DNA of 30,124 bases, from contig JAEXAJ010000072.1 of assembly GCA_023458215.1 (NCBI GenBank), positions 1 to 30,124 on the forward strand, written 5' to 3'. The number at the start of each line of letters is the position of its first letter. Position 1 is the stretch's first letter. Both the position numbers and the translations under genes were made by a program. The stretch is from Bacteroidota bacterium (lineage in GTDB: Bacteria; Bacteroidota; Bacteroidia; Bacteroidales; Bacteroidaceae). The notes beneath the pieces were generated by a model, which was given only the letters and a program-made list of their open reading frames with translations, was not told the origin of the DNA and ran no database searches. Shown here piece by piece: positions 2,546 to 28,117 of the stretch.

Positions 2546-4057
2546 ATGAGAGTAAAATCCCTTTTATGTGCATTCCTCCTGTCATTAGTGGCTGGGGGAA
2601 TGTTTGCGCAAGTGCAGCAGGCGTCTGCATATCCTAAACGTGAATTTCGTGCGGCATGGATTCAGTCGGTAAACGGTCAGTTTCGGGGGCTACCTACCGA
2701 GCAATTAAAGAAAACGTTAATCAGCCAACTGAATTCTTTGCAAGGTGCAGGCATCAATGCTATTATATTTCAGGTGCGTCCCGAAGCGGATGCTCTGTAT
2801 GCTTCCCAATTCGAACCATGGAGCCGCTTTCTTACAGGAGTTCAGGGTAAAGCGCCGGAACCTTATTGGGACCCGATGCAGTTTATGATTGAAGAATGTC
2901 ATAAACGTGGAATGGAGTTTCATGCATGGATTAACCCCTATCGTGTAAAGACTACTTTGAAGAGTCAGTTAGCTCCTACCCATGTGTACAATATTCACCC
3001 CGAATGGTTCGTTACGTATGGTGACCAATTGTTTTTTGACCCTGCATTGCCCGAGAGCCGTCGGCATATTTGCATGGTAGTGAGCGATATCGTATCTCGT
3101 TATGATGTGGATGCCATTCACATGGACGACTACTTCTATCCTTATCCTACCAAAGGACTCGATTTTCCGGATGATGCCAGCTTTGCCCGTTATGGCGGCG
3201 GATTCACCAATAAAGCAGACTGGCGTCGCAGCAATGTAAACGTTTTGATTAAGAAGATACACGAGACTGTACGTGAGATTAAGCCATGGGTGAAGTTTGG
3301 TATTTCTCCATTCGGCATTTATCGCAACGAGAGCAGTGATCCCCTGGGAAGTAAAACAAAAGGCTTGCAGAACTATGATGATTTGTATGCCGACGTACTA
3401 TTGTGGGCACGTGAGGGCTGGATTGATTATAACATTCCCCAGATATACTGGCAAATAGGACATCCGGTTGCCGATTATGAAACGTTGGTGAAATGGTGGG
3501 CCAAGAATTCGGAAAACCGTCCTTTGTTTATTGGTCAGTCTGTGATGAATACAGTGCAGAATGTTGATCCGATTGATCCTAAAATGAATCAACTTCCCCG
3601 TAAGATGGCATTGCAACGTGCTTATCAAACCATTGGCGGTAGCTGCCAGTGGCCTGCAAGCGCAGTCGTCGAAAATGCCGGCAAGTATAGGGATGCCCTG
3701 ATTGCCGAATACCATAAGTATCCTGCCATTCCTCCTGTTTTCGATTTTATGGATAATAAGGCACCGGATAAAGTACGTAAGGTGAAACCTGTTTGGACGG
3801 CAGACGGGTATATCTTATTTTGGACTGCTCCAAAGTATAAGGAAGAGATGGATCGTGCGGTGCAGTATGTGATTTACCGTTTCGATGCCAATGAAAAGGT
3901 GAATCTGGATGATCCTTCCCATATCGTAGCCATTACTCGTGATAGTTTTTATAAGTTGCCATACGACAATGGGAAAACTAAATATCGATACGTGGTAACG
4001 GCGCTCGACCGCTTGCATAATGAGTCGAAATCAGTAGCAAAGAAGATCAAATTATAG
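2546..4057 (+). CDS. GH10-like (GHL10) family glycosyl hydrolase, exported
   Basis: A 503-residue exported protein with a signal peptide (about 1-21, cleavage near GMFAQ) and no lipobox cysteine. The fold signature is that of the GHL10/DUF187 group: RAAWIQSV near the N-terminus, FQVRPEADALY, HAWINPYR, an acidic MDDYFYPYP segment, GISPFGIYRN and IPQIYWQIGH, as in a TIM barrel. The C-terminal 90 or so residues look like a fibronectin III-like module (YILFWTAP, YVIYRF, YRYVVTALDR). Family members are probable glycoside hydrolases, some proposed to act on peptidoglycan or related glycans, but the substrate is not established here. It follows the histidine kinase by 40 bases and ends at a strong hairpin, suggesting a two-gene unit. 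Confidence 0.88.
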   Translation: MRVKSLLCAFLLSLVAGGMFAQVQQASAYPKREFRAAWIQSVNGQFRGLPTEQLKKTLISQLNSLQGAGINAIIFQVRPEADALYASQFEPWSRFLTGVQGKAPEPYWDPMQFMIEECHKRGMEFHAWINPYRVKTTLKSQLAPTHVYNIHPEWFVTYGDQLFFDPALPESRRHICMVVSDIVSRYDVDAIHMDDYFYPYPTKGLDFPDDASFARYGGGFTNKADWRRSNVNVLIKKIHETVREIKPWVKFGISPFGIYRNESSDPLGSKTKGLQNYDDLYADVLLWAREGWIDYNIPQIYWQIGHPVADYETLVKWWAKNSENRPLFIGQSVMNTVQNVDPIDPKMNQLPRKMALQRAYQTIGGSCQWPASAVVENAGKYRDALIAEYHKYPAIPPVFDFMDNKAPDKVRKVKPVWTADGYILFWTAPKYKEEMDRAVQYVIYRFDANEKVNLDDPSHIVAITRDSFYKLPYDNGKTKYRYVVTALDRLHNESKSVAKKIKL

Positions 4058-26442: not shown

Positions 26443-26901
26443 TTATTCTTCCTCCTTTGTTTCTTGCAACAAATACTTCACGTTCTCTATGTGCGTCCGA
26501 AAGATATTGGCCAGTAATCTGGCATTGCCGCTTTCTTTCATTATATCCAATAAGAATTTTACTTGATAGCCAATGTTTTCGCCTGTGCATCTGCGGCTTT
26601 TGCTTGAAAGATGTGGCTGTGCTATATACAATCCGAATCCCTCAATCAGTTGCCTCACTCCTAAAGTATGATAACTACCTAAAAGATCGACAAAGTATTG
26701 AAACTTACCAAGTGCTACGAGCAAATTCTCCAACCGTTCAACATCCGGCCTCTGCACAAAGTAAGTTCCCATATTAACAAAGCGGTTCAGTGTAAGATAG
26801 AAGGTCATCATTTCTTCGTCTGAAGTGAAGATTGCGTGCATAAACTGAGTTTCGTCCCCGGGGCGAACCTGCTCATTGTCCAAAATAGCTTCCATAAGCA
26901 T
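26443..26901 (-). CDS. Small helical protein of unknown function
   Basis: A 152-residue predicted cytoplasmic protein. Met3 (26895) is an equally good start and gives MEAILDNEQ. It has no signal peptide or membrane helix. Secondary structure looks mostly helical with aromatic-rich segments (MMTFYLTLNRFVNMGTYF, FQYFVDLLGSYHTLG) and an acidic end (ETKEEE). I do not recognise the family. The only known upstream promoter with a full consensus (27145-27176) lies beyond the structured element at 26960-27139, so this gene may be expressed from a transcript that begins with that structure. Confidence 0.6.
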   Translation of the reverse strand: MLMEAILDNEQVRPGDETQFMHAIFTSDEEMMTFYLTLNRFVNMGTYFVQRPDVERLENLLVALGKFQYFVDLLGSYHTLGVRQLIEGFGLYIAQPHLSSKSRRCTGENIGYQVKFLLDIMKESGNARLLANIFRTHIENVKYLLQETKEEE

Positions 26902-26959
26902 TAAATTTTTGAATAGGTGAATAAATAAGGTTTAATGGGAAGAACGGAAGAGTGGATTT

Positions 26960-27139
26960 ATAGAAATAAAAGAAGCGGTTTCGCCTGTCCCATTGCATTC
27001 CACCAGCATACCGGCAGTAGGTGCATTAACACTCTACATGGGGGTGCGAAACCGCCATATAGAATGAACACAAACAGGCATAAAAATGCCTGCCGCGTCA
27101 ATAAGGCAGGTTTCCCCGCCGGTATGCTATAATAGAATG
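26960..27139 (-). ncRNA. Candidate structured RNA or leader with pseudoknot
   Basis: On the minus strand a predicted start near 27138 begins almost at the outer stem TGCATTC (27141-27135), which pairs with GAATGCA (27000-26994). After an internal loop comes a perfect 10-bp stem, GCATACCGGC with GCCGGTATGC (27127-27118 and 27015-27006). Inside are two hairpins that share bases and exclude each other: CCTGCC/GGCAGG (27110-27105 with 27094-27089) and CAGGCAT-TTTT-ATGCCTG (27092-27075). A second 10-bp perfect stem, GCGGTTTCGC (27055-27046) with GCGAAACCGC (26984-26975), crosses the first stem, is reinforced by CCCAT/ATGGG, and is followed by TTCTTTTATTTC. This is either a free RNA of about 180 nt or a regulatory leader. 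I cannot match it to a known family. Confidence 0.5.
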
Positions 27140-27144
27140 CATCG

Positions 27145-27176
27145 CAAATGTACAACATATATCTGATAAAGCCAAA
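27145..27176 (-). promoter_or_regulatory. Consensus Bacteroides promoter before the structured element
   Basis: Minus-strand TTTG (27173-27176) and TACATTTG (27145-27152) are exactly 20 bases apart, a full match to the Bacteroides primary sigma consensus and the best promoter seen in the window. It points into the structured element, with a predicted start at about 27138. Confidence 0.75.
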
Positions 27177-27250
27177 AAGGAGCACTGAAATATAAGTCTT
27201 TCAACCAACTTCGGAAACTCTTGAGTAATGTATAGTCAGTGCTCCTTAAT

Positions 27251-27388
27251 TTGTAGAGATATTGAAGATTGTAGAGATACTGAAGAATGCTATCATTCAT
27301 TATCAGTGAGTTATGCTTCTTGGTTGTAGAGATGGTCATGCTGACTATAACTTTTCACGTTTTGCGGTCTTTGTTGCCTTGTAGAGAT
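27251..27388 (+). repeat. TTGTAGAGAT repeats upstream of the HU-like gene
   Basis: TTGTAGAGAT occurs at 27251, 27269, 27324 and 27379, with a degenerate copy (CTGTAGAGG) near 27434. The first two are part of an 18-bp tandem duplication (TTGTAGAGATATTGAAGA and TTGTAGAGATACTGAAGA). All have the same orientation and lie between the structured element and the HU-like promoter. They could be binding sites or members of an interspersed repeat family. Confidence 0.75.
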
Positions 27389-27449
27389 GCGTGTTTGTTA
27401 AACTATTGATAATTAGAAGATTAGTTGAAATAGCTGTAGAGGCCGTTTT

Positions 27450-27481
27450 CTTGCTTTTCTTTGTTTCCCACCCTAACTTTG
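27450..27481 (+). promoter_or_regulatory. Promoter of the HU-like gene
   Basis: TAACTTTG (27474-27481) fits the -7 consensus exactly, and CTTG (27450-27453) lies 20 bases upstream, close to the -33 TTTG. Transcription from about 27488 gives a long leader of roughly 168 bases. Confidence 0.6.
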
Positions 27482-27487
27482 CAACAT

Positions 27488-27655
27488 CGAATCTGAGAGA
27501 AACGAAAGACTGAATCGTTGAGGCCTCACGGTGAAATTCTTTTTTATACCTCTTAAAGGAGATGGGGCTTCGGTCAGCCCTTAACCCGACCGGTCAAAGC
27601 AGTGATGACTGGCTCACTTGCAACTATATTCTATTTACTTAATACATTATTAATT
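27488..27655 (+). promoter_or_regulatory. Long structured leader of the HU-like gene
   Basis: The leader contains a palindrome, TGAGGCCTCA (about 27518-27527), and a compact pseudoknot candidate. The stem GGGCT/AGCCC (27565-27569 with 27576-27580) has loop TCGGTC, whose CGGTC (27571-27575) can pair with GACCG at 27588-27592. No known riboswitch is recognised. A role in controlling the HU-like gene is inference. Confidence 0.45.
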
Positions 27656-28117
27656 ATGTTTTATAAGAAGACTCAACAGAAAATCAATGGCTTGTGGTAT
27701 CCTCAATCTATTACATGGGGCAAAGCCATTACGACCGATCAGGTAGCGGACCAATTGGCGTTCGTCTCTACCGTAACCCGTGGTGATGCGTATGCCATCA
27801 TGAAGAATTTTGGAAATGTACTTTCTCTCTATATGGGACAAGGGCGTACGGTGAAAATAGATGGAGTAGGTACCTTTTATTATACGGCTGCTGCAAATAA
27901 GAAAGGAGTACAAACAGCTAAAGAGGTAAGTGCTTCCCAGATAGTGGGGGTGCGTGTCCGTTTTATTCCCGAGGTTGAACGCGATGTTAATAACAAGGTC
28001 GTTACCCGTAGCATGGTGGACAATAAGATTTGTTGGGAAGAGTGGGGCAAAACCTCCGGTAATGAGAGCGGAAATACCGGTGGTGCAGGTGACGAGAACG
28101 ATAATCCTTTGGGATAA
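27656..28117 (+). CDS. HU-like DNA-binding protein
   Basis: A 153-residue protein of the Bacteroides HU/HU-HIG type. The HU-like fold covers about residues 1-115: MFYKKTQQKINGLWYPQS, then a helix region (TTDQVADQLAFVSTVTRGDAYAIM), then the conserved GRTVKIDGVGTFYYTA strand pair. The C-terminal tail is Gly/Asn/Glu-rich and probably flexible (GNESGNTGGAGDENDNPLG). The frame is open upstream to 27602, but the Met at 27656 matches where these proteins normally begin, and the extra residues would overlap the structured leader, so 27656 is chosen. Such proteins bend and package DNA. It is followed by a terminator, so it is probably transcribed alone. Confidence 0.82.
   Translation: MFYKKTQQKINGLWYPQSITWGKAITTDQVADQLAFVSTVTRGDAYAIMKNFGNVLSLYMGQGRTVKIDGVGTFYYTAAANKKGVQTAKEVSASQIVGVRVRFIPEVERDVNNKVVTRSMVDNKICWEEWGKTSGNESGNTGGAGDENDNPLG

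Follow-up and report, generated by a model that had tools for sequence, protein, structure and literature searches.

Layout of the Locus

The window analyzed here is the whole 30,124-nucleotide stretch of DNA from a genome of the family Bacteroidaceae (contig JAEXAJ010000072.1). Read on its minus strand from 27176 to 26443, it holds in order a promoter, a structured RNA with its U-rich run, 56 nt, and a gene of 152 codons:

27145-27176, minus strand: Bacteroides-type promoter TTTG-20-TACATTTG from a pattern search (TTTG 27176-27173, 20 nt, TACATTTG 27152-27145)
26958-27144, minus strand: structured RNA with the boundaries of the covariance model; predicted 5' end in 27138-27144 or shortly past it
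26958-26974, minus strand: U-rich run 3' of the last pseudoknot strand; at least four T in 50/53 non-redundant copies
26443-26901, minus strand: downstream gene of 152 aa; alternative start possible at 26895

The promoter named in the first-pass annotation is in place on the minus strand (27176-27145), as is the U-rich run that it had set after the last stem (26974-26958). By itself, the promoter string is poor evidence. The pattern occurs three times in the window, where 0.97 occurrences would be expected, and at least three sites arose in 8/100 shuffles. The call is credible because relatives have the same placement at the RNA start, where TAnnTTTG is present in 35/53 non-redundant copies and CAnnTTTG in 11 of the 18 misses.

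Several repeats lie upstream of the RNA. Immediately next to its promoter, 27177-27247 holds a perfect 12-bp inverted repeat (AAGGAGCACTGA/TCAGTGCTCCTT, 47 nt apart) with a weak Rfam match to Plastid-psbA-2 (E 0.09). Within 27251-27389, TTGTAGAGAT(A/G) occurs four times at spacings of 18, 55, and 55 nt, possibly as operator sites. Loci L001 and L003, which carry the gene and the RNA in a neighborhood unlike the window's, have different repeats in place of these copies. Upstream on the plus strand, a gene for an HU-family DNA-binding protein (27602-28117; TIGR01201, E 4e-24) is divergent from the RNA.

Fold and Covariation

Pairing at this site had been judged denser than is likely by chance, and the nested fold of 26950-27140 bears this out, with −82.4 kcal/mol against −51.7 ± 4.2 in shuffles (z = −7.3, 0/200 as good). 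Both perfect 10-bp stems of the first reading exist on the minus strand, GCATACCGGC with GCCGGTATGC and GCGGTTTCGC (27055-27046) with GCGAAACCGC (26984-26975). Since the two stems cross each other, they stand in pseudoknot order. The pairing of the 5' end, TGCATTC (27141-27135) with GAATGCA (27000-26994), is likewise present. The elements of the fold are as follows:

27135-27141, minus strand: P1a 5' strand TGCATTC; pairs with 27000-26994, with both-sided change at 6/7 pairs in relatives
26994-27000, minus strand: P1a 3' strand GAATGCA; in many relatives its alternative partner is the downstream start-codon region
27118-27127, minus strand: P1b 5' strand GCATACCGGC; perfect pairing with GCCGGTATGC
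27006-27015, minus strand: P1b 3' strand GCCGGTATGC; match with the GCATACCGGC region 11 bp in all
27105-27120, minus strand: small hairpin GGCGGG-GAAA-CCTGCC; competes with P1b for GGC (read by eye from the sequence and relatives)
27074-27093, minus strand: P2 hairpin GCAGGCAT-TTTT-ATGCCTGT; both-sided change at 8/8 pairs and pairing in 91.6% of cells, P2 in the model
27047-27055, minus strand: PK1 5' strand GCGGTTTCG; both-sided change at 9/9 counted pairs under a model without the pseudoknot
26975-26983, minus strand: PK1 3' strand CGAAACCGC; partner of GCGGTTTCG
27038-27042, minus strand: PK2 5' strand CCCAT; 100% of cells paired
26989-26993, minus strand: PK2 3' strand ATGGG; partner of CCCAT
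27017-27037, minus strand: P4 hairpin GTAG-A-GTG-TTAATG-CAC-CTAC; 7/7 pairs change on both sides, P4 in the model

The small hairpin at 27105-27120 is a possible folding intermediate.

Two covariance models were used. Model R1, built from 12 sequences, includes P1a, P2, and P4 and leaves out the pseudoknot (PK1 and PK2), and model R2 leaves out P1. The window copy, which is in the seed of both, scored 198.7 bits with R1 and 167.6 bits with R2 in cmsearch. Many homologues were found. A set of 79 model matches was reduced to 74 by removing L113, L114, and L115 (copies of L112 and L111), L098, and the partial match L122:5090. Locus L133 failed the anchor in the exact-match test and L124 failed it in the alignment-free pairing test, leaving 73 rows in each, and redundancy clustering gave 53 copies.

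Across 76 distinct rows aligned to R1, 95.7% of cells were paired and 33/36 pairs changed on both sides, with 0/500 shuffles as good; partners slid along the same alignment reached at most 51.2%. As judged from these relatives, P1a, P2, P4, PK1, and PK2 are conserved with covariation. P1a also held in the alignment to R2, whose model lacks P1 (92.5% of cells paired, 6/7 pairs changed on both sides). P1b columns were ragged in that alignment, at 35-68% paired. An alignment-free test found P1b pairing of at least 7 bp in 60/73 copies against 4% in re-paired controls, and at the same length P1a in 62/73 against 3% and PK1 in 42/73 against 11%. The covariation sought in both 10-bp stems was thus found, for the PK stem under the pseudoknot-free model and for P1b by the alignment-free test. 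By eye, PK1 recurs in very different sequences (GTATCCGTG/CACGGATAC; GACAGAAAG/CTTTCTGTC), and PK2 swaps CCCAT/ATGGG for CCCGT/ACGGG, with CCCTC/GAGGG in a Porphyromonas phage copy. At one PK2 pair, 56 of 74 rows have G-C and the other 18 have A-U; 2/5 of the PK2 pairs are invariable.

A further stem, P3 (CTATATGG/CCATGTAG), can be drawn in the window and was set aside. Relatives give it little support, and the well-supported P4 overlaps its bases. On alignment A6, P3 had 70.9% of cells paired against 68.8% in shuffles and 5 both-sided pairs against 4.9. Its covariation score of 0.116 was above the shuffles (0.091) and barely above the best slid version (0.098).

The near-invariant bases of the family include the C run, the GGG of the RNA tail, and the P4 loop UUAAUG (identical bases in 75-77 of 77). 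The AUG of this loop opens a 22-codon frame in the window and could in principle start the leader peptide of an attenuator. Over 52 copies the frames range from 3 to 287 codons, and the 25 peptides compared have little in common beyond their first residues. On these two grounds the leader peptide was rejected as scarcely credible.

Distribution in Bacteria and Phages

With the RNA as a DNA query, 19/158 genomes of the genus matched. Model R1 matched 44/158 Bacteroides genomes, with up to six copies per genome, and 14/393 genomes drawn from the order Bacteroidales; R2 matched 28/399 genomes drawn from the family and 4/316 drawn from the phylum. A profile of the downstream protein matched 12/158 genomes in the genus and 2/399 in the family. 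The genome draws contain the centre genome, G003, itself, and the large scans ran with stricter filters, under which weak matches are lost. The RNA is found in more genomes than the protein profile, which makes it more widespread than the gene family of the window. In three Bacteroides loci that have the window gene, L001 and L003 among them, the RNA stands just upstream of it.

Copies also cluster, with three within 775 nt in genome G631 and two within 564 nt in G875. Degenerate RNA copies that lack a clear promoter were observed at L117 (7006-7172) and L136 (7835-8003), each directly upstream of an intact copy. At L062 (1501-1857), an RNA copy is followed by a 38-codon ORF that diverges from its relatives right past the start and is perhaps the remnant of a lost gene.

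The RNA also occurs in phages. An exact pattern search gave six IMG/VR contigs, all of which R2 matches (6/6). Among phage records, it is present in BS-TP3 (a phage of Bacteroides salyersiae), MT835542 (from faeces), and one Porphyromonas phage record. In BS-TP3, the RNA is unannotated, with the lysis region on one side of it and the small gene gp17 on the other. This gene starts 14 nt past the model match and is followed by an integrase gene on the opposite strand. In L115, the RNA is two small ORFs ahead of the tape-measure gene. DNA searches of phages and plasmids with the window region gave no matches.

Genes Following the RNA

A same-strand ORF of at least 60 codons starting no more than 139 nt past the tail motif follows the RNA in 47/53 non-redundant copies. 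Such an ORF is present in 8/51 cases upstream on the other strand (two of the 53 copies have too short a flank and were omitted) and in 8/53 shuffled downstream sequences. With ORFs of at least 35 codons, the counts were 51/53 downstream against 22/51 upstream on the other strand and 10/53 shuffled, and the two exceptions are positioned ahead of another RNA copy. The first-pass annotation had left two roles side by side, a new small RNA or a leader of the 26443-26901 gene. These counts favor the leader, and the separate small RNA is the less favored of the two.

A free small RNA would end at the U-rich run, measure 160-190 nt, and act in trans, with the gene reached by read-through only. Its own promoter and the U-rich run that follows the last stem in nearly every copy suit such a molecule, and FopS is a precedent for a multicopy trans-acting sRNA in Bacteroides, as far as the description in PMC11697453 goes. 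We nevertheless regard this reading as rather unlikely, given the gene that regularly follows on the same strand and pairing targets that, where they can be read, are the RNA's own downstream gene. Both roles could also be held at once by analogy with RCd22-abiF, whose short and read-through transcripts are reported to share a start (PMC12373285).

The window gene product has 57 homologous proteins at E ≤ 0.001 and no Pfam or NCBIfam match. AlphaFold predicts it to be all-helical with moderate confidence (helices only, mean pLDDT 77), and fold searches against the PDB gave no match at E ≤ 0.001 and generic helical matches otherwise. For the family, 50 downstream proteins were listed and 41 were scanned as set A7. 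These 41 are very diverse, with a mean column identity of 12%. A domain scan that reports counts for the set as a whole gave Bro-N domains in three, a KilAC domain in one, and a SymE toxin family match in one; PHROGs assigned antirepressor families to three of the 41. By eye, the first residues of the next protein at some further copies resemble the same antirepressor type. The downstream genes indicate no common pathway or input.

The order of promoter, pseudoknotted RNA, U-rich run, and small gene is similar to that of systems in which the RNA is a partner of the encoded protein, either as an RNA antitoxin of the type III or AbiF kind or as a protein-binding autoregulatory leader. The single SymE family match among the 41 proteins points the same way. 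Against it stand the diversity of the downstream proteins, PADLOC with 0/41 matches, and a window protein predicted to be all-helical. The start-site match described below would also require another reason. A protein partner is improbable in our estimate.

Potential Pairing with the Downstream Start Site

The P1a 5' strand is repeated downstream as an exact match of at least 8 nt in 22/73 copies, against about 1.9 expected from re-pairing. Counted as pairing, the P1a 3' strand can form at least 7 bp (range 7-11) with the downstream region in 22/53 non-redundant copies against 7% in re-paired controls. This pairing overlaps the start codon (−20 to +20) in 19 of the 22 matching copies, often at −12 to −2 or +1 to +11. 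The same was seen in copies outside the seeds of both models. In a set of 24 further, unclustered copies found by R2 (26 less L162 and L168, both of which failed the anchor), 14/24 had at least 7 bp against 5% in controls, and all 14 lie within −21 to +11. The Porphyromonas phage copy has a 10-bp start-site match within ATGCCTTACAC.

The match is specific to each copy. One clade of 14 copies has 12 different P1a strands, and in 12 rows the strand matches its own start region with 8-10 bp. Matched pairs averaged 8.5 bp against 3.65 for mismatched ones, of which 2/178 reached at least 7. The remaining two rows, L117_7613 and L076, scored 4 and 3, the start-codon rule having picked another ATG; their longest matches in the exact-match test were 7 and 11 nt. 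Three copies of one genome gave 10, 10, and 9 on the diagonal against 2-4 off it, so that each fits its own gene only. This coupling of three strands (P1a 5', P1a 3', and the start region) is what a regulatory alternative pairing predicts.

Direct repeats flanking the RNA, here the P1a 5' strand and its downstream copy, could also be read as the insertion footprint (target-site duplication) of a mobile RNA cassette, and the RNA copies are indeed dispersed and partly phage-borne. A footprint does not fit the behavior of the P1a 3' strand, which lies within the RNA, is complementary to the two copies, and changes along with both. In addition, homologous genes in one genome and similar context have different triplets, and the repeat-to-repeat distance varies. 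We hold this origin to be highly improbable.

The pairing is not universal. A downstream match of at least 7 bp is absent in 31/53 copies, the window included, and in 10/24 further copies. The window copy has no clear start-site match (best 5 bp), and its close relatives L058, L060, and L061 have an 8-bp match at −24 to −15. Copies before GYGHY-type genes (L072, L073, L074, L137, L148, L161, and L163) are without a start-site match. In 51 copies, predicted start-site access changed by a small amount, from 0.526 unpaired with the arm free to 0.572 with it withheld (p = 0.008); compared with a shuffled arm (0.545), the difference was not significant (p = 0.065). For the PK2 strand, downstream matches in 6/53 copies were not above the 7% expected from controls. 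Single loci (L085 and L136) do have a striking PK2-strand match.

In the Porphyromonas phage locus L173 (3686-4255), the annotated start of gene DBA55287.1 precedes the RNA, which the reading frame then crosses. The start-site match points to an in-frame ATG, at 3923, as the likely true start.

Comparison with Known RNA Families

Rfam 15 gave no match at the gathering cut-off for the whole window and 12 homologous loci, the outcome of a check that the first-pass annotation had named. At E ≤ 10, six weak matches were obtained in 26850-27450, of which NEAT1_2 (E 8.1) and psRNA2 (E 9) overlap the RNA on its strand and are taken as chance. Our literature search found no paper describing the RNA. 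The 3161 candidate RNAs of PMC8040213 lay outside its reach, and an earlier unnamed listing among them is possible.

The closest comparison is with Pedo-repair (RF01715), an orphan motif for which PMC2864571, the only paper found for the name, lists Pedobacter and the entries RNA 'y', cis-reg '?', and switch 'n'. The full Pedo-repair model (1-211) aligns in register to two phage-type copies in L118 and one in L136. The promoter, both parts of P1, a hairpin where P4 would lie, GGUG, CGGGA, and the U-run fall into line in this alignment; the printed pieces of the Pedo-repair consensus have two 9-bp P1 helices, with 81 positions outside the comparison. Scores on these copies were 15.6-19.5 bits against a cut-off of 150 (E 0.05-0.5 in small searches; 0.05-0.4 in stretches of under 700 bases). 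Unrelated families in the same small searches did similarly or better, with E 0.006 and 0.01 outside the RNA and 0.25 for Termite-leu. Pedo-repair had no match in the window stretch (E ≤ 10) or in L057, and none in 18 further loci, a search of low power for such scores. Three whole genomes, including that of L118, likewise had none where their RNA copies lie (0/3 over the cut-off), again with little power, the E-values being for far more sequence. Pedo-repair is thus not the same family by Rfam's rule; we regard it as a possible, perhaps probable, distant relative.

Like translational riboswitches, the family has a conserved core upstream of a gene and, in many copies, a strand with two potential partners, one of them at the start codon. 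In both the family and the window copy, the structured leader is directly upstream of the gene. Unlike in those riboswitches, the proposed switching helix P1a varies greatly and is specific to each copy, the genes that follow have no pathway in common, and the family is not known to have a ligand. The FopS/GibS sRNAs of Bacteroides are similarly multicopy, have the Bacteroides promoter, and are noted in a phage in the sections of PMC11697453 that concern them. That description sets FopS apart: its conserved 5' seed is single-stranded and is followed by a terminator hairpin, whereas the 5' end here is variable and paired in P1a. RCd22-AbiF resembles the family in that a phage-borne RNA stands ahead of a gene and its transcripts either end early or read through (PMC12373285). 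RNAs of the RCd22-AbiF and type III toxin-antitoxin systems are toxin binders with short motifs in repeated copies, in contrast to this family, which has a single large domain and is followed by proteins of great diversity. A direct-repeat array, the type III hallmark, was absent from 26958-27144.

Proposed Mechanism and Implications

From the fold, conservation, position, and, in many relatives, a covarying start-site match, all of them read by sequence comparison, this RNA appears to be a real, conserved, pseudoknotted leader that is best read as a cis-acting translation switch. Acting in cis, it probably switches expression of the gene behind it. For the window copy, the switch is suggested by kinship, because the start-site match there is not clear. 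Which way the switch works, whether transcripts terminate, and what the input is (it may be a metabolite, a protein, or the timing of co-transcriptional folding) are matters of inference. Two findings go beyond the first-pass annotation: the alternative pairing close to the start codon of the following gene and the distribution in phages.

In the proposed mechanism, transcription would start just past the promoter at 27145-27176, and the RNA would fold as a pseudoknot in which P1 closes the domain, P2 and P4 form hairpins, and the segment preceding P4 base-pairs with the 3' tail (PK1 and PK2). The P1a 3' strand would have two possible partners in the family, either the RNA's 5' end or the repeat of that end at the following gene's start codon. 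With a stable core, bound or fully folded, P1a would form and leave the start site free. When the core is not stable, the P1a 3' strand would cover the start site and translation would fall. The U-rich run past PK1 may also terminate part of the transcripts. Translation control of this kind has background in the phylum. Shine-Dalgarno sequences are absent from Bacteroidota, and one member of the phylum, Flavobacterium johnsoniae, tunes translation through the structure of the mRNA around the start codon (PMC6847099).

A broader and more tentative proposal is that the family constitutes a new sensor RNA class disseminated by phages of the Bacteroidales. The core might read a single signal, possibly the state of the host or an infection, and a strand of 8-10 nt that evolves freely might couple it without cross-talk to each copy's own antirepressor, toxin, or accessory gene, with bacteria having kept copies such as the window's for chromosomal genes.

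The RNA is a widespread structured RNA in the chromosomes and phages of major gut bacteria, absent from Rfam at the cut-off where tested. Some copies precede phage antirepressors, and the RNA may therefore contribute to the choice between lysis and lysogeny in gut phages. With a copy-specific switching strand and a constant core, it looks like a natural modular switch. One search for the input would serve the whole family, and the tandem copies would be ready-made regulators that each fit their own gene only.
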